Shown: positions 19,993 through 34,993 of the stretch, piece after piece
Numbering within the stretch: position 1 is the first letter of the stretch
Layout of the letters: each line of letters begins with the position of its first letter
Origin: Arenimonas daejeonensis
Lineage (GTDB): Bacteria; Pseudomonadota; Gammaproteobacteria; Xanthomonadales; Xanthomonadaceae
Direction of reading: 5' to 3'
Assembly: GCF_007993735.1 (NCBI RefSeq)
Contig: NZ_CP042453.1
Location: 62,001 to 126,000, forward strand
DNA: 64,000 bases
Position numbers and translations under genes: made by a program
The notes under the pieces: generated by a model
Seen by the model: the letters and a program-made list of their open reading frames with translations, nothing else
What the model was told of the DNA's origin: nothing
Databases searched by the model: none

Positions 19993-20591
19993 GCCGCCAG
20001 CGCGCCCCCAGCGAGCTGGACACCTTGTTGCTCGACATCCGCGCCTGCCGCTTGTGCGAAGCACATCTCCCGCTGGGCCCGCGCCCGGTGCTGCGCGCCA
20101 GCGCGACCGCGAAACTGCTGATCGTCGGCCAGGCGCCGGGCACCCTGGTGCACGGCAGCGGCGTGCCCCAGGACGATGCCAGCGGCGTGCGCCTGCGTGG
20201 CTGGCTGGGCCTGGACAAGGCTGACTTCTACGACGAGAAGACGATCGCCATCGTTCCGATGGGTTTCTGCTACCCCGGCCGCGGCGCCAGCGGCGACCTG
20301 CCGCCGCGCCCCGAGTGCCGCGCCACCTGGCACCCGCGCCTGCTGCCGCTGCTGCCCGACGTGGCGACCGTGCTGGCCATCGGCCAGTACGCCCAGGCGT
20401 ATTTCCTGGGCGAACGCCGCAAGAAGACGCTCACCGACACCGTGCAGGCCTGGGGCGAATACGCCCCGGCCGTGTTCCCCCTGCCCCACCCCAGCCCGCG
20501 CAATGTCGGCTGGTTCATGCACAACCCCTGGTTCGAGTCCGAGGTAGTCCCGACGCTGCGCCGCCAGATCCAGACCTTGCTGATGCCCTGA
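19989..20591 (+). CDS. Uracil-DNA glycosylase superfamily protein, probable Fe-S type
   Basis: 200-aa protein with the UDG motif I region LLIVGQAPGTLVHGSG and a terminal HPS motif in LPHPSPRNVGWF, as in family 4/5 uracil-DNA glycosylases. Four cysteines are placed as in the 4Fe-4S family: CRLC near residue 20, one in MGFCYPG and one in RPECRATW. Family members excise uracil or related lesions, but this divergent group is little characterised and activity is only inferred. Overlaps the FAD oxidase stop by 4 bp, so the two are co-transcribed. Confidence 0.8.
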   Translation: MSRQRAPSELDTLLLDIRACRLCEAHLPLGPRPVLRASATAKLLIVGQAPGTLVHGSGVPQDDASGVRLRGWLGLDKADFYDEKTIAIVPMGFCYPGRGASGDLPPRPECRATWHPRLLPLLPDVATVLAIGQYAQAYFLGERRKKTLTDTVQAWGEYAPAVFPLPHPSPRNVGWFMHNPWFESEVVPTLRRQIQTLLMP

Positions 20592-20600
20592 TCCGCACCG

Positions 20601-21104
20601 TCACGATGTGCGCAGGTAATCCCTGAGATAGAGCGCGAAGGCCATGCCCAGGGCCGGCACCAGCGAGGCCAGGCTTATCCACAGCAGCAGGTCGCCGAAA
20701 TTGATCGCCGTGAATCGCGTTCCGTGGATCACGCCGATGTAGTTGGTCACCTTCTGTGTCGCCAGCGACTCGAGCACGTTCAGGACCAGCACCCCGCCGA
20801 CCGCGCCGATCAGCCCGCGGCTCAACAGGAATCCGGCATTGCCTGGCTTCGCCAGATGTTCGGCAAATCGCACACTCGCGTACATCAGCACGATCACCAC
20901 GGCCGAAATGCCGAACCAGGTCATCGTGCCCAGGCCGAAGGCCCGGATCTCGTTGTGGTGGTGGACGTTGCCGACCAGGATCGGACCGAACATCCTCCCC
21001 TCGGAAGGGTCGAAAACGATGGCCGCGATGGCACGGAACACCGCGTCCGCCATGCCGAGCAGCAGTCCGACGAGTTCAGGGTGGTGCTTGAATAGTTCTT
21101 TCAT
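20601..21104 (-). CDS. LspA-like four-helix membrane protein, candidate immunity protein
   Basis: 167-aa protein with four predicted membrane segments: residues about 10-30, 57-80, 97-115 and 137-160. The plan resembles signal peptidase II: HHHNEIRAFGLG aligns with the LspA NxGAAF loop, GAVGGVLVLNVLES with GGALGNLxDR, and FTAINFGDLLLW with FNxAD. The first catalytic aspartate block (DR) reads ES, so normal lipoprotein signal cleavage is doubtful. It has a strong GGGAGG-like site (GGGAGG, 4 bases before ATG). It follows a leader-peptide gene and a palindrome, so I infer a role in immunity or peptide handling. Confidence 0.6.
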   Translation of the reverse strand: MKELFKHHPELVGLLLGMADAVFRAIAAIVFDPSEGRMFGPILVGNVHHHNEIRAFGLGTMTWFGISAVVIVLMYASVRFAEHLAKPGNAGFLLSRGLIGAVGGVLVLNVLESLATQKVTNYIGVIHGTRFTAINFGDLLLWISLASLVPALGMAFALYLRDYLRTS

Positions 21105-21121
21105 GGTGCCTCCCGAAAGGA

Positions 21122-21143
21122 CGTTGGCTGCCGGCAGCCAACG
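21122..21143 (-). terminator. Perfect 22-bp palindrome between peptide and membrane-protein genes
   Basis: CGTTGGCTGCC is followed immediately by its exact reverse complement. In RNA this forms a GC-rich hairpin placed 13 bases after the peptide stop and 17 bases before the next start. There is no U-run, only TCCTTTC. It could be a partial terminator or a 3'-stabilising structure that keeps peptide mRNA in excess. A similar palindrome follows the peptide gene at 27867. Confidence 0.6.
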
Positions 21144-21155
21144 CCCGTGCTTGGA

Positions 21156-21359
21156 TCACTTCGTCTTGGGCGGGCAGGTGACTTCGACCTTGATCGATTC
21201 CATGCTGATTTCCACGGAACCACTGCAACCCTGGCTGACGCCGTAGGCCGCCAGGCCCAGCGCCGCACCAGCCAGCAGTCCGCCGACGACGATGACGCCG
21301 ATCACGACCGGGTTGCCGCCACCGACCGCTTCCAGTTCGACATGACTCAGTTCACGCAT
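21156..21359 (-). CDS. Double-glycine leader peptide, putative class II bacteriocin/microcin
   Basis: 67-aa peptide. The leader MRELSHVELEAVGG has the L-S...E-L...V-G-G pattern cleaved by C39 peptidases. The mature part starts with a hydrophobic Gly/Ala/Val helix (NPVVIGVIVVGGLLAGAALG). It continues to a more polar tail holding two cysteines (QGCSGS and VTCPPKTK), possibly a disulfide. The ribosome-binding site AGGAAGGAAG precedes the ATG. No C39 transporter is adjacent; the nearest is at 24182-26325. The leader is nearly identical to those of the two peptides near 28 kb, so a shared exporter is inferred. Confidence 0.75.
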   Translation of the reverse strand: MRELSHVELEAVGGGNPVVIGVIVVGGLLAGAALGLAAYGVSQGCSGSVEISMESIKVEVTCPPKTK

Positions 21360-21716
21360 GGCACTTCCTTCCTGCGAAACCCGCGGATTGCGGGCGGCCC
21401 CACGACACCCTGCTTACCCGGGTCGGGTTCAAGGGAGAGGCATCGCGAAACCGGCGCGAAAAAACCGCGCTGGTCGGACAGGCCACGTCGCTGGATACCG
21501 CGCTACGGAAGGATTCCGCGAAAATTCGACTGCCGCGCGCCATCCCGCACAACGGCAGGACCGGGACGATTGCCGACAGGAAACAAGGCAGGCGATGACG
21601 CGACGTCGAGCCGGAGAACCCGGCAAGGAACCTGATCTGCATGTGCGCGGACTCCGCGACCCGGGACGCACGCAGTCTGCCCACGCAGCCACGCCGTGGC
21701 GCGGCGAAACCCGCCC
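21360..21716. other. 357-bp intergenic region upstream of the leader-peptide gene
   Basis: Only the ribosome-binding site of the leader-peptide gene and a small hairpin CCCGC/GCGGG (21380-21394) can be pointed to. Open frames exist on both strands, but none has a start site, composition or similarity that I can support. It presumably contains the promoter for the peptide gene and the 3' end of the pgpA transcript. Confidence 0.5.
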
Positions 21717-22211
21717 TCAGGCGCGTAGGAAAAAGGCCAGTGCCTGGACCACCGCAAGGGCATAAACACCGGCGATCGCATCATCCAACATCGCGCCGAA
21801 GCCGCCGTGCAGCTTCCGGTCGGCCCAGGAAACGGGCCAGGGTTTGGCGATGTCGAAGATACGGAACAGCACGAACGCCGCCACGACCCAGGCCCATCCC
21901 GTTGGCAGGAACAGCAGCGCGATCCACATGCCGATGTATTCGTCCCACACCACCAGCGACGGGTCCTCGATGCCGGTGCGGGCGATGGCCCAGTGCGAGG
22001 CCCACACGCCGATGCCGAATCCGACAGCCAGCACCGTCAGATAAACCGGCAGCGGCATGTCCTTCATCAGGAACCACCAGGGCAGCAGCGCAGCCAGGCT
22101 GCCGACGGTACCGGGCGCGCGGGGCGAAAAGCCCGCACCGAAACCGGCCGCGATCCAGCCCAGCGGGTGTTTCATCAGCTTGCGGCGGGTGCCGACCGGC
22201 AGCACGGCCAT
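21717..22211 (-). CDS. pgpA: Phosphatidylglycerophosphatase A
   Basis: Inner-membrane phosphatase that makes phosphatidylglycerol from its phosphate. The 164-aa product has four hydrophobic segments and PgpA signatures: GFGAGFSPRAPGTVGSLAALLPWW, the acidic VVWDEYIGMWIA and RIFDIAKPWPVSWADRKLHGGFG. LDDAIAGVYA follows near the C-terminus. Start ATG 22211 shares one base with the thiL stop, the common thiL-pgpA coupling. Confidence 0.95.
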   Translation of the reverse strand: MAVLPVGTRRKLMKHPLGWIAAGFGAGFSPRAPGTVGSLAALLPWWFLMKDMPLPVYLTVLAVGFGIGVWASHWAIARTGIEDPSLVVWDEYIGMWIALLFLPTGWAWVVAAFVLFRIFDIAKPWPVSWADRKLHGGFGAMLDDAIAGVYALAVVQALAFFLRA

Positions 22212-23170
22212 CAGTGCACTCCCTGGAAATGCTGGAACCCGGCGCTGGGTGGCGTGTAGTCGGCGCCCTCGGGCGTGGTGAAACGCAGGCCCGGCGTCGC
22301 TTCGAGCTGGCCGATCACGCTGGCGCCGACGCCGCAGCCGGCCAACGCCTGTTCGATGGCGAAGGCGGCCGAGGCCGGCGCGGTGAAACACAGTTCGTAG
22401 TCGTCGCCACCACCGAGCTGCAGCGGCCAGCGTGCGGCTTCGTCGAAATGATCGGCCAGCGTGCGCGAGGTCGGCAGGCGACCCAGGTCTATGCGCGCGC
22501 CGAGCCCGCTGGCTGCCAGCACATGCCCGAGATCGGCGGCCAGGCCGTCGCTGAGGTCAATGCCGGCGGTCGCGAGACCACGCAGCGCCAGGCCAACGGC
22601 CAGGCGCGGCGTGGGCCGGTCGAGGCGGTAACGCAGCTTGGCGCTGGCCGGGCCGCGCGCGCGCCACTGCTGCAGCGCGCCGGCGGCGTCGCCCAGCGTA
22701 CCGGTGACCCAGACTTCGTCGCCGGGCCGCGCGCCATCACGGCGCAGGGCCTGGCCTTCCGGCACGAAGCCGTGTGCGGTGATCGTGATCGACAGCGGAC
22801 CGTGCGTGGTGTCGCCGCCGACCAAAGAGACATCGTGTTCGTCCGCCAGTTCGAAGAACCCATCCAGGAAGGCGTCCAGCCACGCATCCTCCGCTTCGGG
22901 CAGCGTCAACGCCAGGGTGCACCACGCCGGCGTGGCCGCCATCGCCGCGAGATCACTCAGGTTCACGGCCAGGGACTTCCAACCGATGTCGGCGGGCGCA
23001 GTGTCGGTGGGGAAATGCACACCCGCCACGAGGGTGTCACTGGTGACCACGAGCTGCTGACCTGCAGGCACGCTCAACAGCGCGGCATCGTCGCCAATGC
23101 CCAGCACCACGTCGGGCCGAGCGCGCACGCGTGCGCGGATGCGGTCGATGAGGGCGAACTCGCCCGGCAT
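22211..23170 (-). CDS. thiL: Thiamine-monophosphate kinase
   Basis: Phosphorylates thiamine monophosphate to thiamine pyrophosphate, the last step of cofactor synthesis. The 319-aa protein of the PurM/ThiL fold shows LGIGDDAALL, TSDTLVAGVHF, KSLAVNLSDLAAMAA, LVGGDTTHG and LGGGDDYELCF, the Mg-ATP binding aspartates of the family. Start ATG 23170 overlaps the nusB stop. Frame intact. Confidence 0.96.
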   Translation of the reverse strand: MPGEFALIDRIRARVRARPDVVLGIGDDAALLSVPAGQQLVVTSDTLVAGVHFPTDTAPADIGWKSLAVNLSDLAAMAATPAWCTLALTLPEAEDAWLDAFLDGFFELADEHDVSLVGGDTTHGPLSITITAHGFVPEGQALRRDGARPGDEVWVTGTLGDAAGALQQWRARGPASAKLRYRLDRPTPRLAVGLALRGLATAGIDLSDGLAADLGHVLAASGLGARIDLGRLPTSRTLADHFDEAARWPLQLGGGDDYELCFTAPASAAFAIEQALAGCGVGASVIGQLEATPGLRFTTPEGADYTPPSAGFQHFQGVH

Positions 23171-23631
23171 CAGGGCTTGCGCGGCGCCTGCGCCTCGGCC
23201 TTGCGCCAGTCGGCGGCGGCATGGTCGAGCACGCCGTTGACGTAGGTGTGGCCATGTTCGCTGCCGAAACGCTTGGTGGTCTCGATGGCCTCGTTGATCA
23301 CCACGCGGTAGGGCACGTCGGGGCGGTGGCGCAGCTCGTAGGTGGCGATGCGCAGCACCGCGCGCTCGATCGGGTCCACCTGGGCGATGTCGCGGTCCAG
23401 GAATGCCGCCAGCGCCTCGTCCAGCGAACCGAGGTTCTTCTCCACGCCACGCACCAGGTCCTCGAAGTATTCGAGGTCGGCCACTTCCATGTCCTGCTCG
23501 TTGCGGAACTGGTCGATCACCTTGTTGATGGCGGTGTTCGACAGCTGCCAGGCGTAGATCGCCTGCAGTGCACGGCGGCGGGCGCGGGAACGGGCGTGCG
23601 GATCAACGCCGTCGGGACGGGAATGTTTCAT
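23170..23631 (-). CDS. nusB: Transcription antitermination factor NusB
   Basis: RNA-binding factor that, with NusE/S10, forms the antitermination complex on rRNA operons. The start [29 protein letters not shown] bears the arginine-rich boxA-binding helix. Signatures FLDRDIAQVDPIERAVLRIATYEL and VINEAIETTKRFGSEHGHTYVNGVLD follow. Length is 153 aa from ATG 23631, which overlaps the repaired ribH stop. Longer in-frame upstream sequence is an antisense shadow of ribH. Confidence 0.96.
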   Translation of the reverse strand: MKHSRPDGVDPHARSRARRRALQAIYAWQLSNTAINKVIDQFRNEQDMEVADLEYFEDLVRGVEKNLGSLDEALAAFLDRDIAQVDPIERAVLRIATYELRHRPDVPYRVVINEAIETTKRFGSEHGHTYVNGVLDHAAADWRKAEAQAPRKP

Positions 23632-24094
23632 GCCATTTTTCCGATCAGGTTCGCCATCTCGATGATGATGGGGCGGCTTCTTCGCCCTTGTTGCCGTGGC
23701 TGCCACCGGCGCGGGCCTCGGCGTGGGCGTAGTCGTCCACCGCCAGCACGCCGTTGGCGACGGGGATGCCGGTGTCCAGGGCCACGCGCATCAGGCCACG
23801 GGCGCACTCGTCGGCCACCTGCTCGTAGTGGCGGGTGTCGCCGCGCACCACGCAGCCCAGGACCACGACGCCGGCATAGCCGTTGCGGTCGATGGCGTTG
23901 GCGGCGGCCACGGGCAGCTCCCAGGCGCCGGGCACGCGGATCACGTCCACGTTCTCGGCGGCGACGCCGTTGCCCAGGAAGGCCCGGCGCGCGCCGTCCA
24001 CCAGCGCATCGGTGATGCGCGGGTTCCAGCGGCTGGAAATGATGGCGTAACGGGCCGAACCGGGGCTCTGGACGTCGCCTTCGTAATGGCTCAT
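23628..24094 (-). CDS. ribH: 6,7-dimethyl-8-ribityllumazine synthase (one apparent frameshift)
   Basis: Penultimate enzyme of riboflavin synthesis; condenses ribitylamino-uracil with dihydroxybutanone phosphate. Motifs: [55 protein letters not shown] and [18 protein letters not shown]. The frame breaks near 23,670 after KGEEAA. One restored base gives [13 protein letters not shown] with a TGA overlapping nusB, about 155 aa. The 87 bp separating it from the upstream ABC gene hold only GC-rich sequence and a TTTTTT run. In related genomes ribB normally sits directly upstream. Confidence 0.94.
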
Positions 24095-24181
24095 CGGGGA
24101 AGGGGCCGGAAAAAAGAGGCCTAGTTTACCCCGCGGGCGCCGCAAGATGCGCCGGCCGGGCCGGGCCGCAGCCGGGGGCGC

Positions 24182-26325
24182 CTAGGCCACCTCCAGCGGG
24201 GACGGGCTGGTCTCCACCGGCGGCCCTGGCGTGGCGGCCGGGGCGTGGGGCGTCCTGACCTCCTGCACGATCCGCCCGCCGTGCATCACCAGCACCCGGT
24301 CCACCGATGCGATCGTCTCCGGCCGGTGGGCGATGATCAGCTTGGTGAGCCTGAGCCGGCGCACGGCGTCGTTGACCAGCCGTTCGCGCTCGACGTCGAG
24401 GTGGCTGGTGGCTTCGTCCAGGAACAGCAGCCGCGGCTCGCGATACAGCGCGCGGGCCAGGATCACCCGCTGCTTCTGCCCGCCCGACAAGGTGGTGCCC
24501 ATGTCGCCGATCAGGCTGTGGTAACCCATGGGCATCGCGGCGATCTCGTCGTGCACGGCCGCCAGCCTGGCCGCGGCCTCGACCCGCGGGAAATCCATCC
24601 CGGTATCGCCGAACGCGATGTTCTCCGCCACCGATCCGGCGAACAGCTGGTCGTCCTGCATCACCGCACCCACCAGCGCCCGGTAGCTGCGCAGCCCCAG
24701 CTTGTGGATGTCCTGCCCGCCCACCCGGATCGAGCCCTCGCTGGCGGGCAGCAGGCCCAGCAGAAGCTTGACCAGGGTGGTCTTGCCGCAGCCGGACGCA
24801 CCCACCACGGCCACCGATTCGCCCGGCTCGACCGTGAAGCTGCAGTCCTTGACCACCCACGGTTCGCCATCGGCGTACCGGAAGCCCAGCCCCGTGACCT
24901 CGATCCGGGTGTCCGGCGGCGGCAGCGATGCGATGTCCGAGGCCAGGTCCCGTTCGGGCGGCGTCAGCACGATGTCGGCCAGGCGCTCGCCGTGCAGGCG
25001 CAGCATGCGGAACTCGATCCACTTGTCGATCAACCCCGACACCCGGGCCGCGAACTGGTCCTTGTAGGCCAGGTAGGCGATCAGCATGCCAACCGAAAAC
25101 ACGCTGTCCATGGCCAGGCGGGCGCCGATCCAGATGACGGCGATACGTTCGAGGCCGAACACCAGCTGGCTCGCGGTATTGAAGCCCAGGCCCAGTCGGG
25201 CGAGCCCCAGTTCCTGGTTCACGGTGTCCACCATCAGGTTCTGGTAGCTGCCCTGGCGCTGCGGCTCCTGGCCGGCCACCTTGACGCTCTGCATGCCGCG
25301 CAGCGACTCCAGAAGGTGCGACTGCTGCTGCGCGGCGCAGACCAGCTGTTTCTCGGTCGTAGTGCGGAGTGGCCTGAACAGGGCCGCGCGCATGCACAGG
25401 TACAGGACGACCGCGACCAACGTGATGGCCGCCAGCTTCGGGCTGTAGAGCAGCATCATCGCCAGCGTCGCCACCGCCATCAGGCCGTCTATCAGCGCCT
25501 CGATGAAACTCGTCGTCAGCGTGCGCTGGATCGCCTGCACGGCACCCATGCGCGAGACCACGTCGCCGAGGTGCCGTTTCTCGAAGAACGACATGGGCAG
25601 GCGCACCGCGTGCGCGAACACATTGCCCATCCACTGCAGTCCCAGCCGGCTGGACAGGAAAACCACCGACCAGCCACGCAGTACGCCGATCGCCACCTGC
25701 AGCAGCAGGGCCAGACCGAAGCCCAGGCCCAGGACGGTCAGCAGGTCCCGGTCGGCCGATACAGGGGCCTGGTCCACCACCCACTGCATGAAAAACGGTG
25801 CCAGCAGCACGAACACCTGCAGCGCCACCGACAGCAGCAGGATCATGCCCAGCGACCGCCAGAGTCCGCGTACCGGGCCGGTGAGCTGGGACAGCTTCAC
25901 CGCTGGCGGCGCCGGCTGCGGCTTGAAGTCGGCGCCGGGCGTCAACTCCAGCGCCACCCCGTGAAGTGTTTCGAGGCTTCCGCGTGGCTCAGCGTGCGTT
26001 CGCCGAACGCCGGGTCCAGGACGGTGATGCCGCGCGTCCCCACTTTCCTGAGCACGACGAAATGATTCAGGTCCCAATGCAGGATGCACGGGGCCTGCAG
26101 GCGGGTCATGTCCTCCAACTCCAGGCGCAGGGCGCGGGTCTGGAATCCCAGGGCCTGGGCGATGCCGATGAGGCCGGTCAGCGACGCCCCCTTGAGCGAA
26201 AGCTGGAACCGCTGGCGCAGATCCTGAAGGTCGGTGCGATGACCATGATGGTCGGCGACCATGGCCAGGCAGGCCAGGCCACACTCGGCCGCCTGGGCCT
26301 GGAGGATGAGCTTCATGCGGCTCAT
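24182..26325 (-). CDS. Peptidase-containing ABC transporter for double-glycine peptides (one apparent frameshift)
   Basis: CvaB/ComA-like exporter that cleaves the leader and secretes the peptide. An N-terminal C39 domain (residues 1-125) has the catalytic cysteine in AAECGLACLAM, histidine in WDLNHFVVL and aspartate in VLDPAFGER. Six membrane helices follow (about residues 150-430). The nucleotide-binding domain has VGASGCGKTTL, the signature LSGGQKQRV, LLFLDEATSHLD and IIAHRPETI. A base is missing near 25,960 between the peptidase and membrane parts; repaired length is about 714 aa. The start overlaps the HlyD stop. All catalytic residues are intact. Confidence 0.92.
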
Positions 26326-27590
26326 CGGGCCGAGGCCATGCTGCCGCTGAGCGCGTACAGCGGCTCAATCGCCCATTCCCAAAGTTTGCGCTGCTCCCCG
26401 AGGATATCGGCCTCGAGCAGCATGCCGGGCTTGAGCGATTCTTCGCGGCCGAAGGCGCGTACGGTGGGCCGGTCCAGCGCGACCACGATCCGGTAATACG
26501 GCTCGCCGGCCTGCGTGTTGCCCACCAGGGTGCCCAGCTCGCCGACGGTCAGTGCGCTGCGGGACACACGGACCACCTTGCCGCCATGGTGGCCGAACTT
26601 CTGGTACGGGAACGCCTGGTAACGCAGCAGCACCTGATCGCCTGGCTCGATGAAACCCACGGCACGGCTCGGCACCATCAGGTGCGCCTCGAGCGCGCTG
26701 GCCGCGGGCAACAGGCTGAGCACCGGCTGTCCGGGCTGCACTGCCTGCCCGGCCTGGCCCAGCAGCGTGCTGATGGTTCCCGACACGGGCGACTGGATCA
26801 CCGCCTCGGCCCGTGACGAGGCTTCCAGCGATTCCTGCGAGAGGCTGGCGCGGTCACGCTGCTCGCCGGCGTCGAGCGCCGCCAGGCGGGACGGCAATTC
26901 CTGGCGCGCCTGTTCAAGCTGCGCGAGCTGGCGGCGCAGGGCCAGTGCCTGGCGTTCCAGCGACTGGGCCTCGCCCAGCTTTTCCAGCGCCAGCGTTTGT
27001 TGTTGCTGCAGCTGCAGGTCAGTGACGAACTGCTGCTTGCGCAAGCCGCGGAAGCGCTCCAGCGTCTGTTCGGCCAGCGCATGCTGCTGGCGACGGGTGA
27101 AACTCTCGGCTTCGATCTGGCGCAGCTCTGCATGGCCGCCTGAGATCTGCGCGGCCAGGCCCGCCTGTTGTGCCTGGAGCTGAAGACGCTGGGAGGCATA
27201 ACTGTGCGCGACGCCGTCCTGGCGTTCGGCGATCGCTGCCTGCAGGGCGGCGGTGGTGTTTCCGGCGACCAGGGTCGAACGTGGTGTGGTCACGACCGCC
27301 AGCACGTCCCCGGCGAGCACACGCTGCCCTTCCTCGACACGCACCTCGGAAAGTATGCCGGCGCTGGGCGACGCCACGGACGCCAGGCCGAGGCTGGGCA
27401 CCAGCTGGCCCGTGACGCGGGTGCGCCGGGTGTAGTCGCCAAGCACGAGGAAGCAGATGACCGCTGCCGCCGCGAACACGGCGAAACCCGTGAGCAGCCA
27501 CAGCGACACCGGCTGGCCCAGCACGATGCCGCCCAGCCAGCGCGCCTGGCGCGCCTGCATCACTTCTTGTCGGAACAGGGAATCGGACAT
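26322..27590 (-). CDS. HlyD-family membrane fusion protein (peptide export adaptor)
   Basis: Periplasmic adaptor of a type I secretion system, expected to join the ABC exporter to a TolC-like channel, which is not in this window. The 422-aa protein starts MSDSLFRQEVMQARQARWLG. A single membrane helix (about 25-48) is followed by a lipoyl half-motif (SPSAGILSEVRVEEGQRVLAGD). A long Gln/Leu-rich coiled coil spans roughly 120-250, then comes the second lipoyl half (IQSPVSGTISTLL) and beta-barrel. ATG 27590 is chosen because this is the CvaA-like N-terminus; upstream in-frame codons are non-coding. Overlaps the transporter start by 4 bp. Confidence 0.92.
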   Translation of the reverse strand: MSDSLFRQEVMQARQARWLGGIVLGQPVSLWLLTGFAVFAAAAVICFLVLGDYTRRTRVTGQLVPSLGLASVASPSAGILSEVRVEEGQRVLAGDVLAVVTTPRSTLVAGNTTAALQAAIAERQDGVAHSYASQRLQLQAQQAGLAAQISGGHAELRQIEAESFTRRQQHALAEQTLERFRGLRKQQFVTDLQLQQQQTLALEKLGEAQSLERQALALRRQLAQLEQARQELPSRLAALDAGEQRDRASLSQESLEASSRAEAVIQSPVSGTISTLLGQAGQAVQPGQPVLSLLPAASALEAHLMVPSRAVGFIEPGDQVLLRYQAFPYQKFGHHGGKVVRVSRSALTVGELGTLVGNTQAGEPYYRIVVALDRPTVRAFGREESLKPGMLLEADILGEQRKLWEWAIEPLYALSGSMASAR

Positions 27591-27633
27591 GCGGAATCGG
27601 TGCCGGGCCGTGATGGTTGCCCGAAGGCCCGTA

Positions 27634-27798
27634 TCAGCCGCGACGATCCTGGCGGCGGCGCGCGAATGCGCCAACGGCCAGACTGGCTGCGGCAGCGAGG
27701 CCGAATCCCAGCCCGTAGGCCGGTGATACCACGACGCCGATGGTCACGCTGGCCAGCACGATGAGGCCACACACGGCGACAAGGATGGATTTGTTCAT
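27634..27798 (-). CDS. 54-aa two-helix membrane protein, candidate immunity protein
   Basis: MNKSILVAVCGLIVLASVTI opens the first hydrophobic helix. A short turn (SPAYG) and a second helix (LGFGLAAAASLAVGAF) follow, ending in a very basic tail ARRRQDRRG. A GGGAAG ribosome-binding site precedes ATG 27798. No family recognised. It lies between two double-glycine peptide genes and their export genes on the same strand, where small membrane immunity proteins are often found; that role is an inference from position and topology. Confidence 0.6.
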   Translation of the reverse strand: MNKSILVAVCGLIVLASVTIGVVVSPAYGLGFGLAAAASLAVGAFARRRQDRRG

Positions 27799-27825
27799 GA
27801 TCTTCCCAGGAAGGGGTGGCGGGAA

Positions 27826-27851
27826 GCCGTCCGGGGCCGGCCCCGGACGGC
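27826..27851 (-). terminator. Perfect 26-bp palindrome after the second peptide gene
   Basis: GCCGTCCGGGGCC is followed directly by its reverse complement. The predicted RNA hairpin is all but one pair G-C or C-G. It lies 15 bases after the peptide stop and 27 bases before the 54-aa gene, with no U-run. Probably an attenuating or mRNA-stabilising hairpin that favours peptide over transporter expression. It parallels the palindrome at 21122-21143. Confidence 0.6.
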
Positions 27852-27866
27852 AGGCGACGCAATGGA

Positions 27867-28079
27867 TCAGTTCAGCGCGTTCCAGAACACCAGCGTGTGG
27901 CCACCGGCGCTGATCGCACCGGCGACACAACCGATCGCGGTGCCGACGCCGGGCATCACGCTGCCAGCGAGTGCACCGGCAGCGCAGCCGACGAGGGCGC
28001 CGGTGGACACCACCGCAGCGCCTTCGGCGGAAGCACCGCCGACACTGGAAATTTCGTGCATAGAAAGTTCACGAACCAT
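27867..28079 (-). CDS. Double-glycine leader peptide B, putative class II bacteriocin
   Basis: 70-aa peptide with leader MVRELSMHEISSVGG. The mature part is Gly/Ala/Val-rich and hydrophobic (ASAEGAAVVSTGALVGCAAG, then ALAGSVMPGVGTAIGCVAGA). It has two cysteines 18 residues apart, several GxxxG helix-packing motifs and an aromatic tail (HTLVFWNALN). An AAGGAA ribosome-binding site lies 8 bases before ATG. It is the second of two tandem peptides, 15 bp after the first, resembling two-component class II bacteriocins. Activity is inferred only. Confidence 0.78.
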   Translation of the reverse strand: MVRELSMHEISSVGGASAEGAAVVSTGALVGCAAGALAGSVMPGVGTAIGCVAGAISAGGHTLVFWNALN

Positions 28080-28094
28080 GACAACGTTCCTTGT

Positions 28095-28298
28095 TCAGTC
28101 AGTGATGTAGTACAGGAGGATGCCGCCTGCGCAGCCACCGAGCACGGCGGCCGCGAGGCCCACGCCCCCGGTGACCACGCCAGCGATCGCGCCGCCCGTG
28201 GCGGCCGCACCGGCACCCGCCGCGCAGGACGCGGCCAGCTCGCCACCGGTGCCACCACCCATGACGGAACCCAACTCAACTACGCTCAGATTGCGCAT
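28095..28298 (-). CDS. Double-glycine leader peptide A, putative class II bacteriocin
   Basis: 67-aa peptide with leader MRNLSVVELGSVMGG. The mature segment is almost entirely Gly, Ala and Val (GTGGELAASCAAGAGAAATG, then GAIAGVVTGGVGLAAAVLGG). It has two cysteines and ends CAGGILLYYITD. Start ATG 28298 is supported by a GGGGAAAG site; the longer open frame upstream lacks a ribosome-binding site and would bury the leader. First gene of the peptide-export operon. The 156 bp upstream hold a GTCGGA/TCCGAC hairpin but no confident promoter. Confidence 0.78.
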   Translation of the reverse strand: MRNLSVVELGSVMGGGTGGELAASCAAGAGAAATGGAIAGVVTGGVGLAAAVLGGCAGGILLYYITD

Positions 28299-28454
28299 GT
28301 CTTTCCCCGAAAATTGAAACACAAGGTTATGCACCGCCGGCCGGATGGCGTGATCAGTGATGCCCGGTCGTGCGGGTACGAAATCGTCGGACCAAACATC
28401 CGACGCATCGAGTGGAGCACGACTCTGTTTCAGCATTCAATATCTTGACGCGCA

Positions 28455-28920
28455 TCACAGTTCGCGAGTATTCGCGGACACGGTTCCTGTGAGCGCGCAT
28501 TGCGGTTCGACCAGCTGCTTCCACCCTTTCCGCCGCTCGCGGAGGATGTCGGCCTCACGCAACATGCCAGGCATTCCGGCAGCAGGGCTCACCCTTCAGA
28601 CCTGATCGTCCAGACAGTGAGCCCAGCTCACACGTGGTGAGTGCGCTCCGGGAAACGCGCAGCACGGTACCCACAGCGGACTGGGTACTGACAAATGCGA
28701 TTACGGCGCACGCCCCTCCGTCGTGCGACCAGTTTTCCATCGGCTCCCGCGTCAGGCTGGCGCGCTCGTGCTGCCCGGCATCGATCTGGACCAACACGCC
28801 GTCACACCGCGAGGTTAGTCGTGCTTGCCGTTCCATGATGTGTCCACGCTGGGAAGCATGACTGTCCGACACACCGCCCTGGCGCGCCGCAACCGCGCGC
28901 GATGTCCCGACATCAAAACA
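28455..28920 (-). pseudogene. Decayed second copy of the HlyD-family adaptor gene
   Basis: Collinear fragments match the intact HlyD protein at 26322-27590. ARQGGVSDSHASQR matches its AERQDGVAHSYASQR. IDAGQHERASLTREPMEN matches LDAGEQRDRASLSQESLE. VLRVSRSALTTCELGSL matches VVRVSRSALTVGELGTL. PGMLREADILRERRKGW matches PGMLLEADILGEQRKLW. The order is kept but segments between are lost and the frame changes near 28,600. It ends at TGA 28455. It directly follows the ribB stop, is less GC-rich than its surroundings, and shows that an older export locus existed here. Confidence 0.8.
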
Positions 28921-28924
28921 GCAA

Positions 28925-30024
28925 TCAGCCGGCAGGCGCGACGTACTCGACCACTTCCAGGCCGTAACCAGCCAGCCCCACCTGACGGCGCGGCGTGCCG
29001 AGAACACGCAGCTTGCCCAGGCCGAGATCCGCCAGGATCTGTGCGCCGGCGCCGTTGCGACGCCACTGGCCGACGTCCTTGCGGTTGCCCTGCACCTCCG
29101 GCTGCTTGCGCAGGCGCGCCAGCAGGGCCTCGGCATTGCGCGGCTCCGACAGCACCACCATCACGCCCTGCCCTTCGCTGGCGATCGCGCGCAGGGCATC
29201 GGTACCGGCCACGCCAAAATCGTCGCGTCGCCAATGCAGCAGATCGCTGAGCGGATTCTCCACCTGCACGCGCACAGGGTCGGCACTTCACGGCCGGGGC
29301 TGCCCTTCACCAGCGCGAAGTGCAGCTCGTGGGCGATACGGTCGCGGTAGGTCACCAGGCGGAAGGGCCCGAACTCGGTCTCGATCTCACGCTCGTCGAT
29401 GCGCTCGACCGTGTGTTCGGTGGCCAGGCGCCAGGCGATCAGGTCGGCGATCGAGCCCATCTTCAGGCCGTGCTCGCGCGCGAACACTTCCAGTTCCGGG
29501 CGCCGCGCCATGCTGCCATCGGCATTCATCACTTCCACCAGCACGCCGGCCGGCTCCAGGCCCGCCAGCATCGGCAGGTCGCTGGCGGCTTCGGTGTGGC
29601 CGGCGCGGGTCAGCACGCCGCCGGGCTGCGCGGTGAGCGGGAAGATGTGGCCGGGCTGGCTCAGGTCGCTGGGCTTGGCGTCCGGGCGCACGGCGGTGCG
29701 CACGGTGTGGGCGCGGTCGTAGGCGGAAATGCCGGTGGTGACGCCTTCGGCCGCTTCGATGCTGACGGTGAAGTTGGTCTGGAACTGCGCGGTATTGGTC
29801 TGGACCATCGGCGCCAGGCCCAGCTGGGCGCAGCGTTCGCGCGTCAGCGACAGGCAGACCAGGCCACGCGCGTGGGTGACCATGAAGTTGATGTCGCTGG
29901 GTTTGACCAGCTCGGCGGCCATGATCAGGTCGCCTTCGTTCTCACGGTCCTCGTCATCGACGATCACGACCATGCGGCCCTGGCGGATTTCTTCCAGCAG
30001 TTCGGGGACAGGGGCGAAGCTCAT
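28925..30024 (-). CDS. ribB: 3,4-dihydroxy-2-butanone-4-phosphate synthase with degenerate GTP cyclohydrolase II domain (RibBX type; one apparent frameshift)
   Basis: The N-terminal RibB domain makes the four-carbon unit of the lumazine ring: [19 protein letters not shown], the THARGLVCL loop and [11 protein letters not shown] are its active-site blocks. The C-terminal half has the RibA fold, but the zinc-binding cysteines are gone: [21 protein letters not shown] stands where RibA has a SECLTGD...CDC segment. This matches the RibBX hybrid described in Proteobacteria. GTP cyclohydrolase II must therefore be encoded elsewhere. A base is missing near 29,279; repaired length is about 366 aa. Start overlaps the ribE stop. 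Confidence 0.9.
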
Positions 30025-30625
30025 GGCTGTTCCTCGCGAGCCGCCAGCAGGCGCTCGACGTAACGGGCGACGGTGTCGACCTCGAGATTGATGGCGGCGC
30101 CGACCTGGGTTTCGCCGAAGGCGGTGTGGGCGACGGTATGCGGCACTAAGGTTCACTTCGAACCCGGTGGCATCGACGGCGTTCACGGTGAGACTGGTGC
30201 CGTCCACCGCGATAGAACCCTTCACCGCGACATAGCGCAGCACCGAGGCCGGTGCGCTGAAACGCCAGCGCTGGCTGCGGCCGTCATCCCAGACCTTATC
30301 CACTTTGCCGACGGCGTCGACGTGGCCGGAGACCAGATGGCCGCCAAGGCGGTCGGTCGGCAGCAGCGAACGTTCCAGGTTCACCGCACTGCCCTCTTCC
30401 AGCGAACCGAGCGTGGTCAGGGCCAGGGTTTCGTTCGACACGTCCGCGGCCCAGCCGCTGGCGTCGAATTCGACCACGGTCAGGCAGCAGCCGCTGACGG
30501 CGATGGACTCGCCCAGGGCGATGTCGTGGGCGGGCATCGTGCCAGGAGAACCGCAACCGCTGGTCGCCACCGCGGGTTTCGCGGGCGACCAGCCGGCCGA
30601 CGGATTGGATCAAGCCAGTGAACAT
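30021..30625 (-). CDS. ribE: Riboflavin synthase alpha chain (two apparent frameshifts)
   Basis: Final enzyme of riboflavin synthesis, dismutating two lumazines. The N-terminal barrel begins [20 protein letters not shown] and has [14 protein letters not shown]. The second barrel has [14 protein letters not shown] and [15 protein letters not shown]. Extra bases near 30,546 and 30,148 split it into three frames; the last gives [20 protein letters not shown] and ends on a TGA overlapping ribB. Repaired length is about 200 aa. A HicA-like/HTH gene pair separates it from ribD. Confidence 0.93.
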
Positions 30626-30729
30626 GGGCAACACCAGGGGCCGGCCGGGTTGGCGGGCGGGGGCGTCATTGTATGCGCTGGGGCCGGGATCGGCCGGAAC
30701 TGCTGCCGCAACGCAGCTATCCGCGACTC

Positions 30730-31257
30730 CTAGATCAACGGGGCCAGGGCCTTGGGCAGCACGGCACCGGGCAACGCCCTGACCTGCCGGGCGATGTTGA
30801 ATTCCATCGTCGTCCGGGCGATCTCTCGCAAAATCCCGTCCACGGGGCGGGACTGCGCCTCGCCCAGCCAGTCCAGCACGCTGGCAAGGTGCCACAGCGA
30901 GGGGTTGCCCTCGTGCACCGCGGGCGGAAAGGTCGCGGCGTGACCGAGCATCAGCTTGCGCATGTTCTGGCGGGTAAAGCCGATCAGATCGGCGATGTCG
31001 GTGAGGCCGACGAAATCGGGCGAGGCCTCGACCAGTTCGGCACCGGGGATCGCCCGCTTCACGTCCTTCACGGCCGAGGCGATGGCGTCGTAGGCCGAGG
31101 CCGCACGCCGCGTGAAATCCAACGCGATGCGGCCGCGTTGGCCGATGCCGACCAGTGCGTCCTCGCAGCCGGCCTCGGCCAACGCCTCGAGGTGGGTTTC
31201 GGCATCCGCATTCGGATCCGGCAGCTTGAACTTCAGGGTGAATTCGTAATCATTCAT
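30730..31257 (-). CDS. HTH protein, putative antitoxin of a HicA-like pair
   Basis: 175-aa protein starting MNDYEFTLKFKLPDPNADAE. The N-terminal half (residues 1-75) is a small alpha/beta segment ending IALDFTRRAASAYDAIASAV. The C-terminal part has a helix-turn-helix of MerR/excisionase type, TDIADLIGFTRQNMRKLML. The ATG lies inside the end of the HicA-like gene (8-bp overlap), typical of toxin-antitoxin pairs. A perfect 16-bp palindrome in the shared promoter is the likely operator. The antitoxin role is inferred; no defined family name is claimed. Confidence 0.65.
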   Translation of the reverse strand: MNDYEFTLKFKLPDPNADAETHLEALAEAGCEDALVGIGQRGRIALDFTRRAASAYDAIASAVKDVKRAIPGAELVEASPDFVGLTDIADLIGFTRQNMRKLMLGHAATFPPAVHEGNPSLWHLASVLDWLGEAQSRPVDGILREIARTTMEFNIARQVRALPGAVLPKALAPLI

Positions 31258-31532
31258 CGTCTTTGTTCGGACGCCCGGCTGCCTGCGCTGCGGCCTGGTG
31301 CCAGCAGCGGTCCACCACACGCCGCAACTGCTTGCCGTGGGTTCCGGCGTTGCGAGGCGTGCTCCAGATGCTGGTGATGCAGAACTCGCCGCAGCGGCAG
31401 TATTCGTCGTTCCAGGGGGCAGTACATCTTTCCCCAGGCGTGCGATCCACCGGTCACGACGCGCCAGCCGTGGCGCTCTGCATGCACCAACGCGGCCTCG
31501 ACATCAGGTTTCGGGTGCCGCGTTCTGGGCAT
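31250..31532 (-). CDS. HicA-like cysteine-rich small protein, putative toxin (one apparent frameshift)
   Basis: About 93 aa after removing one base from the G run at 31415-31419. The N-terminal 40 residues (PDVEAALVHAERHGWRVVTG, then GSHAWGKM) look like the HicA dsRNA-binding fold with its G-S-H motif. They are followed by an unusual cluster of four cysteines in YCPWNDEYCRCGEFCIT, which could bind metal. The tail STPRNAGTHGKQLRRVVDRC is basic. HicA toxins cleave mRNA; whether this variant does is not known. The gene precedes and overlaps an HTH protein gene. Confidence 0.6.
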
Positions 31533-31534
31533 GG

Positions 31535-31570
31535 AGTTTAGGCCGATGAATCAGGTTGTCAAGTGACAAC
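31535..31570 (-). promoter_or_regulatory. Promoter and perfect palindromic operator of the HicA-like/HTH pair
   Basis: On the minus strand TTGACA (31562-31557), a 16-base spacer and TAAACT (31540-31535) lie immediately before the ATG (CCATG), suggesting a nearly leaderless mRNA. The -35 box is embedded in the 16-bp perfect palindrome GTTGTCAAGTGACAAC (31555-31570). A repressor bound there would block polymerase, so autoregulation by the HTH protein is likely. Confidence 0.65.
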
Positions 31571-31571
31571 T

Positions 31572-31592
31572 CGATGTTCAGGGCGAACATCG
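31572..31592. repeat. Inverted repeat CGATGTTC/GAACATCG
   Basis: Perfect 8-bp arms with a 5-base loop (AGGGC), located between the ribD stop and the operator palindrome. It may be a second regulator-binding site or a hairpin ending the ribD transcript. It has no T-run on the minus strand. Confidence 0.5.
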
Positions 31593-31659
31593 CATCAGCT
31601 TCAGCCTGACCGCGACCTCAGGACCGGCGCAGTCAACCCGAAAGGGCGTAAGGATTTTG

Positions 31660-32748
31660 CTACTGCGGCGCCAGCAGCAAGCGCAGGTCCGGCCCCACCT
31701 GCCGGGTCTCGACCAGGCGCAGCCCCAACCGCTCCGACATCGTCGCCGGGTCGATGCCGGCGAACAGCGGGCGGCCCTTATCGCCCAGCAGCACGGGGGC
31801 GATGTAGAGCAGCAGTTCGTCGATCAGGCCGGCCTTGAGCAGGGCGCCGGACAGCGTGGCGCCCGCTTCGACCTGCAGCTCGTTGACGCCGCGCTGGCCC
31901 AGCTGCGACAGCACGGCGTTGAGGTCCAGGCCCAGGCCGCCGCGGCGCACGGCGAAGGCGCTGACGTTGTCGTCGTAATCGGGCACCACGTCGTCGGCGT
32001 GCACGGCCAGCGTGGGCGCGGCGCCGTCGGTCAGCAGGGCCGATGTCGCCGGCAGGCGGCCGCGTTCGTCCAGCACCACTCGCAACGGTGGCATGAAGGA
32101 CTCGCCTTCGGGCAGGCGCACGGTGAGTTTCGGATCGTCGGCCAGCACGGTGCCGATCCCGGTCATGATCGCGCCGGAACGTGCGCGCCAGCGCATCACA
32201 TCGGCGCGCGCGGCTTCGGAAGTGATCCACTTGGATTCACCGCTGGCCAACGCGGTGCGGCCGTCCAGGCTCATGCCCAGCTTCACCCGCACCCAGGGGC
32301 GGCCACGTTCGATGCGCGAGAAGAAACCGCGGTTCAGATGCCGCGCCGCCGCCTCCATCAGGCCGTGTTCGACCGTGATGCCGGCGGCCTGCAGCTTGGC
32401 GAAACCCTGTCCCGCCACCTGGTAGAACGGATCGCGGCTGGCCGCCACCACGCGGGTGACGCCCGCGGCCACCAGCGCGTCGGCGCAGGGCGGCGTACGG
32501 CCATGGTGCGAACACGGCTCCAGCGTGACGTAGGCGGTGGCGCCCTGGGCGCGTGCACCCGCGGCGCGCAGCGCGTGCACTTCCGCATGCGGTTCGCCCG
32601 CGCGTTCATGCCAGCCTTCGCCGAACACGCGTTCGCCGTCTGCTATCACGCAGCCCACCATCGGATTGGGATGGGTGGTGAACGCGGCGCGCTCCGCGAG
32701 CTGCAGCGCGCGGGCCATGTGGGCGTGGTCCTGGGCGGAGAAGTTCAT
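31660..32748 (-). CDS. ribD: Bifunctional pyrimidine deaminase/reductase RibD
   Basis: Carries out the deamination and side-chain reduction steps of riboflavin synthesis. The N-terminal deaminase domain (residues 1-145) has zinc ligands in GEPHAEVHAL and EPCSHHGRTPPCADAL. The reductase domain has VRVKLGMSLDGRTALASGESKWIT, ARSGAIMTGIGTVLADDP and LQVEAGATLSGALL. Length 362 aa from ATG 32748, which overlaps the GNAT stop by 4 bp; the upstream in-frame extension is antisense to GNAT. Frame intact. Confidence 0.96.
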   Translation of the reverse strand: MNFSAQDHAHMARALQLAERAAFTTHPNPMVGCVIADGERVFGEGWHERAGEPHAEVHALRAAGARAQGATAYVTLEPCSHHGRTPPCADALVAAGVTRVVAASRDPFYQVAGQGFAKLQAAGITVEHGLMEAAARHLNRGFFSRIERGRPWVRVKLGMSLDGRTALASGESKWITSEAARADVMRWRARSGAIMTGIGTVLADDPKLTVRLPEGESFMPPLRVVLDERGRLPATSALLTDGAAPTLAVHADDVVPDYDDNVSAFAVRRGGLGLDLNAVLSQLGQRGVNELQVEAGATLSGALLKAGLIDELLLYIAPVLLGDKGRPLFAGIDPATMSERLGLRLVETRQVGPDLRLLLAPQ

Positions 32749-33209
32749 GCGGGGCGGATGTCCATCAGGCGAACGGGCGTGCCGCGCAGCGTGGCCGATT
32801 CGCGTGCACGCCAGCCCAGGCGGGCGTAGAAGCTTTCGTGTTCGGGCGTGAACAGCCACAGGCGCTCGACCCGCTGGTCGGCGGCGAAGGCCACCACCGC
32901 ACGCACCAGCAAGGCACCCAGGCCGCGTCCGCGCGCTTCAGGCCGCACGTAGAGGCTGGCCAGCCAGGCGTCGCCGTGGTTGCGCAGCTCGGGCGCATCT
33001 TCTTCGACCAGGCTGACGGAACCGAGCAGTTCATCGTCTTCGAGGGCGACCAGCGTGGTGGGCATGTCGCGCCGGGTCGCGTGGTCGCGCAGTTCCGCTT
33101 CCGCGACCTCGAGCGTCCAGTCCTCGTAGAGGTGCCCCCACTGCGCATGGTGCCAACGCGCCAGCACCGGCACGTGACCGGGGTGGTCGGCCAGTGGTCG
33201 GATGTCCAT
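32745..33209 (-). CDS. GNAT family N-acetyltransferase
   Basis: 154-aa acyl-CoA-dependent acetyltransferase. The acetyl-CoA binding motif A is WLASLYVRPEARGRGLGALLV. The C-terminal LFTPEHESFYARLGWRARES has the tyrosine typical of the catalytic acid. Substrate not predictable. It is wedged between nrdR and ribD with a 4-bp overlap to ribD, so it is transcribed with the nrdR-ribD operon. Confidence 0.88.
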   Translation of the reverse strand: MDIRPLADHPGHVPVLARWHHAQWGHLYEDWTLEVAEAELRDHATRRDMPTTLVALEDDELLGSVSLVEEDAPELRNHGDAWLASLYVRPEARGRGLGALLVRAVVAFAADQRVERLWLFTPEHESFYARLGWRARESATLRGTPVRLMDIRPA

Positions 33210-33214
33210 GGCGT

Positions 33215-33733
33215 TCAGCGCCTGGCCTTGTCGGGACCCGGCACGTCCAGCAGGGGCAGCTGCAGGCCTTCGAGGCCGGGCAGGTCGCGTTCAAGCCGCT
33301 CGATTTCCTCGCGGAAGGCCTGCACGTCCTCGAACTTGCGGTACACCGACGCAAAACGCACGTAGGCCACCTGGTCGAGCTTCTTCAGCTCGGCCATCAC
33401 GAACTCGCCGACGCGCAGCGAGGGCAGTTCGCGCTCGCCGCTCAGGCGCAGGGAATGCACCACCGAACGCACGGCCTCGTCGATCTGCTCGGCCGAGACC
33501 GGGCGTTTCTGCAGCGCGCGGTCGAAACTCACGCGCAGCTTGCGCTCGTCGAAGGCCTCGCGGCGTCCATCGCTCTTGACGATGGACGGCAGCTTCAGTT
33601 CGGCCACCTCGAAGGTGTTGAAACGCTCGTTGCATTGCTCGCACTCGCGCCGGCGCCGGATCGTGGACCCGTCCTCGGACACGCGCGAGTCGATCACGCG
33701 GGTGTCTTCGTGCTGGCAGAAGGGGCAGTGCAT
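33215..33733 (-). CDS. nrdR: Transcriptional repressor NrdR
   Basis: Zinc-ribbon/ATP-cone repressor of ribonucleotide reductase genes. [17 protein letters not shown] and [14 protein letters not shown] supply the four zinc cysteines. The ATP-cone follows ([20 protein letters not shown]). The 172-aa length is slightly longer than usual because of a C-terminal tail ([19 protein letters not shown]). It lies between glyA and ribD, a common proteobacterial order. Confidence 0.96.
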
Positions 33734-33742
33734 CCGGATCCG

Positions 33743-34993
33743 TCAGCCGTACACCGGGAACGCGCGGCACTGCTTGGTGACGTTGTCGCGCACGCCGGCG
33801 ATCACGTTCTCGTCGGTCGGCGCGTCGAGCACGTCGCAGATCCAGTTCGCCAGCGCCACGCACTCCGGCTCCTTGTAGCCGCGGGTGGTAACCGCCGGGG
33901 TGCCGATGCGCAGGCCCGAGGTGACGAAGGGCGAGCGCGGGTCGCCCGGCACGGCGTTCTTGTTGACGGTGATGTGGGCGGCGCCGAGCGCGGCTTCCGC
34001 GTCCTTGCCCGTGACGTCGCGGCCGATCAGGTCGATCAGCATCAGGTGGTTTTCGGTGCCGCCCGAGACGATCTTGTAACCGCGCGACATCATCGTCTTG
34101 GCCATCGCCTGCGCGTTCTTGACGACCTGCTTCTGGTAGTCGGTGAAGGCTGGCTCCAGCGCTTCCTTGAACGCGACCGCCTTGGCGGCGATCACGTGCA
34201 TCAGCGGGCCGCCCTGGGTGCCGGGGAAGACCAGCGACTGGAACTTCTTCTCCAGCACTTCATTGGCGCGCGCCATGATCACGCCGCCGCGCGGGCCGCG
34301 CAGGGTCTTGTGCGTGGTGGAGGTGACGACGTCGGCATAAGGCACCGGATTCGGATAGATGCCCGCGGCTACGAGGCCAGCGACATGCGCCATGTCCACG
34401 AAGAAATAGGCGCCCACCGACTTGGCGATCGCGGCCATGCGCTCCCAGTCGATGATCTGGGAATAGGCACTGAACCCGGCGACCAGCATCTTCGGCTTGT
34501 GCTCGGTGGCCAGGCGCTGCACTTCGTCGTAGTCGATCAGGCCGGCGTCGTTCACGCCGTACTGCACGGCGTTGAAGAGCTTGCCGCTGAAGTTGACCTT
34601 GGCGCCGTGGGTCAGGTGGCCGCCGTGCGCCAGGCTCATGCCGAGCACGGTGTCGCCGGCCTGCAGCAGGGCCAGGTAGACGGCGATGTTGGCCGAGGAA
34701 CCCGAATGCGGCTGCACGTTGGCGTAGTGCGCGCCGAACAGCTGCTTGAGGCGGTCCAGCGCCAGCTTCTCGGCCACGTCCACGTATTCGCAGCCGCCGT
34801 AGTAGCGCTTGCCGGGATACCCCTCGGCGTACTTGTTGGTCAGCACGCTGCCCTGGGCTTCCAGCACGCGCGGGCTGCAGTAGTTCTCCGAGGCGATCAG
34901 TTCGACGTGGTCTTCCTGGCGCTGGCGTTCGTGGGCGATGGCCTGGGCCAGGGCATCGTCGTAACCGGCAATCTGCATATCCTTGGCGAACAT
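33743..34993 (-). CDS. glyA: Serine hydroxymethyltransferase
   Basis: PLP enzyme interconverting serine and glycine with tetrahydrofolate, supplying one-carbon units. The 416-aa protein has [39 protein letters not shown], the PLP lysine in [13 protein letters not shown] and the C-terminal [15 protein letters not shown]. Frame intact. It is the first gene of the glyA-nrdR-GNAT-ribD run. Confidence 0.98.

Follow-up and report, generated by a model that had tools for sequence, protein, structure and literature searches.

A probable class II microcin-type system split over two sites of a riboflavin operon in Arenimonas daejeonensis

Several export systems for peptides with a double-glycine (GG) leader have been described. 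In Moraxella catarrhalis, the mcbABCI locus comprises two secretion genes, a GG peptide gene and an immunity gene, as demonstrated by mutation and cloning (PMC2761928). In microcin V (CvaC; CvaA/CvaB) and other class II microcins, the leader is cut by a peptidase-containing ATP-binding cassette (ABC) exporter with an adaptor; of 23 candidates taken from Pantoea, Erwinia and Xanthomonas, 12 showed inhibition of E. coli in a self-inhibition test, though to a lesser degree than microcin V (PMC13174018). A locus of this type is described here in a 64,000-nucleotide stretch of Arenimonas daejeonensis (hereafter the window; contig NZ_CP042453.1, positions 62,001 to 126,000). An HlyD-type adaptor and a C39-peptidase ABC exporter are encoded there between ribB and ribH, next to two GG peptide genes (pep1 and pep2) and the gene of a 54-amino-acid protein (p54). 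A third GG peptide gene (pepC) and lspL, the gene of a membrane protein related to the lipoprotein signal peptidase LspA, follow pgpA. With a probability of about 0.6, this ensemble represents a class II microcin-type system of the chromosome (double-glycine leaders, C39 processing), with two cargo modules split over two sites of the riboflavin operon.

The comparison with these systems reveals both likenesses and differences. The window resembles the class II microcins in its GG leaders, its adaptor and its C39 and ABC domains, which here lie in two frames; its peptides, in contrast, belong to no microcin family above cut-off, and ribH-nusB-thiL-pgpA stand between the exporter and one cargo pair. 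The mcbABCI locus differs from it in that a single peptide gene and a single immunity gene form one block, uninterrupted by any housekeeping operon, and the abstract of that article mentions no LspA-like partner such as lspL (PMC2761928). The M. catarrhalis plasmid NC_011131.1, which is probably the one studied there, encodes an adaptor 39% identical to the window HlyD over 69% of the latter. An LspA relative encoded with an antibiotic is found in the globomycin and myxovirescin clusters, where a resistance role was proposed for it, an arrangement that the pepC-lspL pair recalls; however, those antibiotics do not belong to the ribosomal peptides, and the conserved residues of LspA are retained in GlobF, whereas LspL has diverged and stands beside a ribosomal peptide (PMC9943842). 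The nap island of Neisseria is likewise horizontally acquired and encodes three GG peptides together with a putative immunity gene and a C39 peptidase, but in place of an HlyD/C39-ABC pair it has a FapF-type outer membrane protein and a peptidase that stands apart, and its peptides act in autolysis (PMC11798529). As a type, the export system of the window is already known, and what appears to be new is its split layout, together with the LspA-like partner and the hairpin plan described below. Among the matches listed in a search of open-access literature (titles and abstract openings), none linked LspA or signal peptidase II to a microcin, a bacteriocin or immunity, and none dealt with an Arenimonas bacteriocin of this sort.

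In the proposed mechanism, the HlyD and C39-ABC proteins encoded between ribB and ribH would form the exporter used by both cargo modules, i.e. pep1-pep2-p54 beside it and pepC-lspL after pgpA. Leaders would be cut by the C39 domain at GG (or GGA), and the mature peptide would leave through the exporter and a TolC-type channel, presumably for antibacterial action. The membrane protein of each module, p54 or LspL, would most likely protect the producer, and the hairpin predicted between the genes would probably set the ratio of peptide to protector. Everything that the first-pass annotation had listed for the minus strand of the ribB-ribH interval, namely two GG peptides, the 54-amino-acid protein, HlyD and the C39 and ABC domains, is present, and Peptidase_C39, ABC_tran, ABC_membrane and HlyD_3 all score above their Pfam cut-offs. 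Its list was nevertheless incomplete, having overlooked a decayed hlyD fragment and the third GG peptide with its partner after pgpA (21359-20601).

The leaders were evaluated with a 12-position matrix, for whose training 57 leaders were taken from non-Arenimonas loci; these training leaders were chosen by motif and may include false ones. Among the 1895 starts of open reading frames (ORFs; 30-130 amino acids) in the window, pepC scored 22.6, pep2 18.1 and pep1 15.6, the next score being 10.5. The GG leaders initially proposed for pep1 and pep2 were recovered in this independent manner at ranks 3 and 2, and the best-fitting cleavage point of pep2 lies after GGA. SALTVGELG-like segments of HlyD (26576) and of the decayed hlyD copy (28674), both on the minus strand, rank 5th and 4th, probably by chance. 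No NCBIfam family was found for pep1 or pep2, and p54 belongs to no Pfam or NCBIfam family above cut-off; NCBIfam matches of p54, pepC and LspL all stay below the cut-offs. A layout similar to that of the first module is seen in locus L235, where two GG ORFs are followed by a hairpin (folded without shuffle controls) and by a 68-amino-acid hydrophobic ORF in the slot of p54. One of these GG ORFs matches pep1 (37%, E 0.001), and the likeness of the other to pep2 is visible by eye only, BLAST giving no match.

The second module is defined by the association of pepC and lspL. The pepC relatives have a leader of the form MREL...E...V.GG, a hydrophobic stretch and two tail cysteines. A pepC profile at E <= 1e-5 recovered 7 of 395 genomes of the family: four Arenimonas, and G284, G293 and G087 from another genus. 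A further ten genomes matched at E 5e-4 to 0.01, in eight cases on the leader part, and were not counted as pepC. A profile of seven LspL proteins used at the same threshold retrieved the same 7 of 395 genomes, in all of which lspL adjoins pepC or its remnant. Searches with the single LspL sequence found the window only among 369 genomes of the class, and nothing among plasmids. The role of this pair is best illustrated by G103, the sister of the window in the operon tree (support 0.993; the ribH loci of the distant genomes L166-L170, ribH 40-42%, were left out of this tree). In G103, no exporter occupies the ribB-ribH gap and the order HlyD-pepC-lspL-C39ABC is found directly after pgpA. The pair is there the cargo placed between HlyD and the C39-ABC exporter, a gene order which argues that pepC-lspL is cargo of such an exporter; compared with the window islet, it also indicates that the riboflavin operon took such a system at two places. 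More generally, of 80 related loci, 27 have a GG-leader ORF between HlyD and C39, and 3 have one before HlyD, the placement seen in the window. A malic-enzyme ORF is located upstream of the pair in G284 and G087. The peptide of G087 has decayed and its lspL is still open, as would be expected of a retained immunity gene.

Additional small ORFs were noticed in the same surroundings. In G087 (L232 7810-9132), three more GG-leader-like small ORFs occur within 4 kb of lspL, no exporter being matched in the 15 kb read. In A. metalli (L152 12437-12604 and 12864-13037), two other leader-like small ORFs follow pgpA, at the place taken by pepC and lspL in the window.

The position of the exporter between ribB and ribH was compared across 27 genomes of the genus: a ribH match was obtained in 25, the contig is cut at ribH in 2, and both flanks are visible in 23. 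HlyD and C39-ABC occupy the site in 5 of these 23 (the window, G167, G161, G151 and G128) and are missing from the other 18, so that the insertion deduced at the outset from the unusual neighborhood is borne out by this comparison of spacing. Four of the distant loci L166-L170 are counted among the 18, as they gave no exporter match despite a ribB-ribH gap of ~710-735 nucleotides, measured from the matched part of ribB to ribH; weaker ABC matches were removed by E-value filters in the locus comparisons. The arrangement of the window is found again in the Arenimonas loci L040 and L064. In the ABC tree, the five islet exporters are grouped at 92/86, a fork that is not starred, and two long branches are marked there as uncertain. 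The likely history of the site is a single insertion, after which losses, moves or exchange took place.

The lspL product is best described, on the basis of profiles and residues, as a diverged relative of LspA and not as LspA itself. Tested against Peptidase_A8 (Pfam cut-off 25 bits), three of seven LspL proteins pass (29.1, 31.0 and 31.6), three are weaker, including that of the window (21.5), and that of G128 gives no match. The profile built on the seven proteins has a single match up to E 10 among PDB sequences, the lipoprotein signal peptidase 6ryo/6ryp (E 2e-7), which spans profile positions 4-153 of 168; no other LspA entry falls within E 10. In 180 genomes of the order, the same profile also picks up two LspA genes (1.6e-6 and 9.2e-6), one of which has LytB as a neighbor. 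A weak alignment of five LspL with two LspA was returned by hhalign, motif on motif (probability 26%, E 7e-4), and a search of the PDB with the single LspL sequence gave nothing meaningful. The predicted structure of LspL is of too poor a quality to bear on the kinship. In each of the four Arenimonas genomes tested, a full-scoring LspA is encoded at another place. When the 14 conserved LspA residues (PMC6952399) were placed on the Arenimonas LspA by spacing, the window LspL was found to retain 6 of them, with Asn at the first catalytic position. Over eight LspL, this position is Asp in 5, Asn in 2 (the window and G103) and Glu in 1 (one G076 copy); the second catalytic Asp is kept in 8/8 and the Asp-Arg motif is lost in 8/8. 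The statement that LspL is catalytically dead in general was dropped, both Asp being kept in 5 of 8.

This pattern bears directly on the function of LspL. Asp at both catalytic positions in five of the eight proteins, together with the constant succession of pepC (or its remnant) and lspL in 7/7 genomes, would suit a maturation protease or chaperone of pepC, i.e. an LspA-type aspartyl protease trimming or inserting the peptide, and not an immunity protein. The substitutions at the first catalytic position in the window, in G103 and in one G076 copy, the loss of the Asp-Arg motif in all eight proteins and the open lspL that persists beside a decayed peptide in G087 speak against such a role, which we regard as rather improbable. 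If LspL is instead an immunity protein, as we prefer to think, its origin may point to the target of the peptide. Indeed, we hypothesize that pepC acts on LspA, because LspA-inhibitor clusters carry lspA copies (PMC9943842) and because LspL is its partner. In its most complete form, the proposal is that pepC hits the LspA of competitors, or their lipoprotein maturation, which would make it the first ribosomal peptide to do so; that LspL is an altered copy or a decoy derived from LspA and conferring immunity; and that cargo is loaded by recombination at the 3' end of hlyD, the fragments described below being its scars. Taken jointly, these propositions are tentative and we hold them to be doubtful. 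Recruitment from LspA would also be conceivable for a membrane immunity protein that does not share its target. The interest of the question is that, if the partner of a microcin is a relative of LspA, sequence alone would point to the target.

The two modules seem to follow a common plan, in which the peptide gene or genes, a hairpin and the membrane protein gene succeed one another. A hairpin is predicted at 7/7 pepC-lspL junctions (z -2.0 to -5.4), and its stem sequences vary while pairing is retained; the seven stems were poorly aligned by MAFFT and no pair counts were therefore derived. None of eight other stretches of the window used as controls falls below z -1.5, some of these being inside coding sequence and the pgpA control being some bases off the gene start. 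It is quite possible, even if not the explanation that we favor, that these structures are ordinary terminators with no sign of a shared design. GC-rich stems are common in such genomes, and the hairpins seen by eye upstream of pepC were rejected, since these regions are barely more stable than shuffled sequence (z -0.4 to -1.8 across 6 genomes). Terminators of this type account less well for the contrast between the seven pepC-lspL junctions and the pep2-p54 junction, all at z <= -2.0, and the eight other stretches, for pairing that is kept while stem sequences differ, and for the absence in the window of a T-run after the hairpin, with the start of the partner within 16 nucleotides. In G076, which has two lspL copies, their junction gave z -0.6. 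In A. fontis (L159 7376-8454), two tandem lspL copies have a junction without a hairpin; for this cultured species, pepC-type and lspL genes are found in L058.

The decayed hlyD fragment of the window is not unique. Among 86 loci with a full HlyD (79 distinct after removal of 7 duplicates), such fragments were found in 4, namely L041, L051, L177 and the window, and not in the other 82; an additional one is present at L036/L176, where HlyD itself is broken. All five are C-terminal and stand just before a GG-leader ORF, and that of L041 is 91% identical to its own HlyD. This thin set of cases suggests that recombination in hlyD may be one route of cargo exchange. The fragment of the window fits this model less well, as it stands ahead of another full HlyD gene. 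In one Silanimonas metagenome-assembled genome (L034, L035, L036 / L175, L176), C39-ABC exporter genes are distributed over at least 3 contigs, and one of its loci combines a broken HlyD, an hlyD fragment and several GG-leader ORFs.

A number of observations weigh against a functional microcin-type system split in this way. With Pfam PF10439 Bacteriocin_IIc (cut-off 27.1 bits), pep1 (14.4), pep2 (16.6) and pepC (20.3) all remain below the cut-off. In the 26 other genomes of the genus, the best match of pep2, the one of the two islet peptides searched in this way, is no better than E 0.0047. The other four islets leave ~100-210 nucleotides between ribB and HlyD and 8-22 nucleotides between HlyD and C39, with no room for a peptide gene; as they hold the exporter only, pep1 and pep2 were presumably either gained in the lineage of the window or lost elsewhere. 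The HlyD tree splits the five islets, G128 being placed with G103, and Silanimonas and G159 among the rest. The pepC gene starts 2.8 kb past the end of the exporter, with four housekeeping genes (ribH-nusB-thiL-pgpA) in between, and no exporter was matched around pepC in G284 (12 kb), G293 (5.8 kb) or G087 (15 kb read). The mature peptides are neutral to acidic and not cationic. This last property also suits peptides that would not be antibacterial but that, exported in the same way, would affect the population of the producer (by autolysis, biofilm or signalling). Indeed, the GG peptides of the gonococcal nap island have no detectable antimicrobial activity and promote autolysis (PMC11798529), a precedent that also counts against the microcin-type reading, and in Synechococcus, biofilm development involves small GG proteins that are secreted (PMC4997328). 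The presence of a peptide and a membrane protein in each module and the survival of lspL beyond its peptide in G087 are better accounted for by immunity, and a patchy spread (7/395) suits a weapon better than a core signal; a role within the producing population therefore seems unlikely to us.

The last point of this kind concerns the exporter itself. The C39 frame ends at 25942 and the ABC part lies in another frame, whereas a single open frame covers C39 and ABC in three relatives (L148, L152 and L157). Of the C39-ABC transporter proposed in the first-pass annotation, both the peptidase and the ABC domains are confirmed and the single intact gene is not, no open frame running across the two parts. 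Taken with the decayed hlyD fragment that adjoins the peptides, this frame change could mean that the islet is a dying remnant with a truly frameshifted exporter. However, between 18500 and 30700 of the window, further frame changes relative to the three relatives affect ribE (two), ribB, the 3' end of ribH and a gene near 19175, and decay of the whole riboflavin pathway is implausible. In addition, nusB, thiL, pgpA, ribD, HlyD and lspL match the relatives in one frame, pepC is open, the exporter domains score as well-kept families, and the genome, assembled in one 3.03 Mb contig, has a completeness of 86%. Because ribE, ribB and ribH are frameshifted too, indel errors of the assembly are a likelier explanation than biological decay; we judge a dying islet to be very improbable and the exporter to be presumably functional. 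Any pseudogene call in this genome needs care with such an indel-prone assembly. An exporter 72% identical to that of the window also occurs in a record titled Bacillus subtilis SK7B5 (L078), which is probably a contaminating contig.

This locus matters for the search of such systems in general. The cargo of a microcin exporter may sit several genes away from it, within a housekeeping operon, and searches restricted to the vicinity of exporters would miss such cargo.

The features discussed above are collected in Table 1. The names ribD, ribE, ribB, ribH, nusB and pgpA are confirmed by Pfam, and the AIRS domains agree with thiL.

Table 1. Position of the features of the two modules and of their exporter in the window.
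Feature	Coordinates	Strand	Remark
ribB (DHBP synthase and GTP cyclohydrolase II-type C-terminal part)	28925..30024	-	Upstream neighbor of the islet; frameshift-split, the single ORF of relatives matching in two frames
Decayed hlyD 3'-end fragment (HlyD residues ~328-420)	~28473..28743	-	55% and 39% identity to the window HlyD in two pieces; E 3.8e-11
pep1, 67 amino acids, leader ending in GG, two Cys, Gly/Ala-rich	28095..28298	-	Third-best leader of the window
pep2, 70 amino acids, leader GG(A), two Cys, glycine-rich	27867..28079	-	Second-best leader of the window
Predicted hairpin between pep2 and the 54-amino-acid gene	27826..27851	-	z -3.1
p54, 54-amino-acid hydrophobic protein with basic tail; putative pep1/pep2 immunity protein	27634..27798	-	Same slot as the 68-amino-acid hydrophobic ORF of L235
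HlyD-type periplasmic adaptor, 422 amino acids	26322..27590	-	HlyD_3 69.3 bits, E 5.7e-19
Exporter, C39 peptidase domain (first frame)	25942..26325	-	Peptidase_C39 E 4.7e-35
Exporter, ABC membrane and ATPase domains (second frame)	~24182..25960	-	ABC_tran 2e-33, ABC_membrane 7.3e-33
TAAACT, promoter-like element of ribH	24123..24128	-	TAAACT in 17 and TAGACT in 3 of the 20 ribH loci compared
pepC, 67 amino acids, third GG peptide: hydrophobic stretch, then two-Cys tail	21156..21359	-	Best leader of the window
Predicted hairpin between pepC and lspL	21119..21146	-	Counterpart at 7/7 pepC-lspL junctions
lspL, LspA-like membrane protein, 167 amino acids; putative pepC immunity protein or partner	20601..21104	-	LspL profile

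Scans for other elements were negative within their range: Rfam gave nothing at gathering scores in 20000-34000, ARAGORN found no tRNA within the window, and between 23500 and 29500 the promoter scan returned 0 promoters (0.5 expected from shuffles) and the terminator scan 2 terminators (2.3 expected from shuffles). The islet does lie between ribD-ribE-ribB and ribH-nusB-thiL-pgpA, and it had been feared that the latter genes would be separated from their promoter. This concern is eased by the region preceding ribH. About 30 nucleotides before the gene, TAAACT (17 loci) or TAGACT (3 loci) is found in 20/20 loci compared, whether the islet is present or not, the five distant ribH loci (L166-L170) being outside this comparison. 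This motif may be the -10 element of a ribH promoter, although the simple promoter scan did not call it. Since the islet sits upstream of it, with 53 nucleotides between the end of the exporter gene and TAAACT, the insertion has probably not left ribH isolated. In some genomes, the TAA of the element is also the stop codon of ribB, and in the genomes with the islet, the ribB stop is elsewhere and the element is retained.

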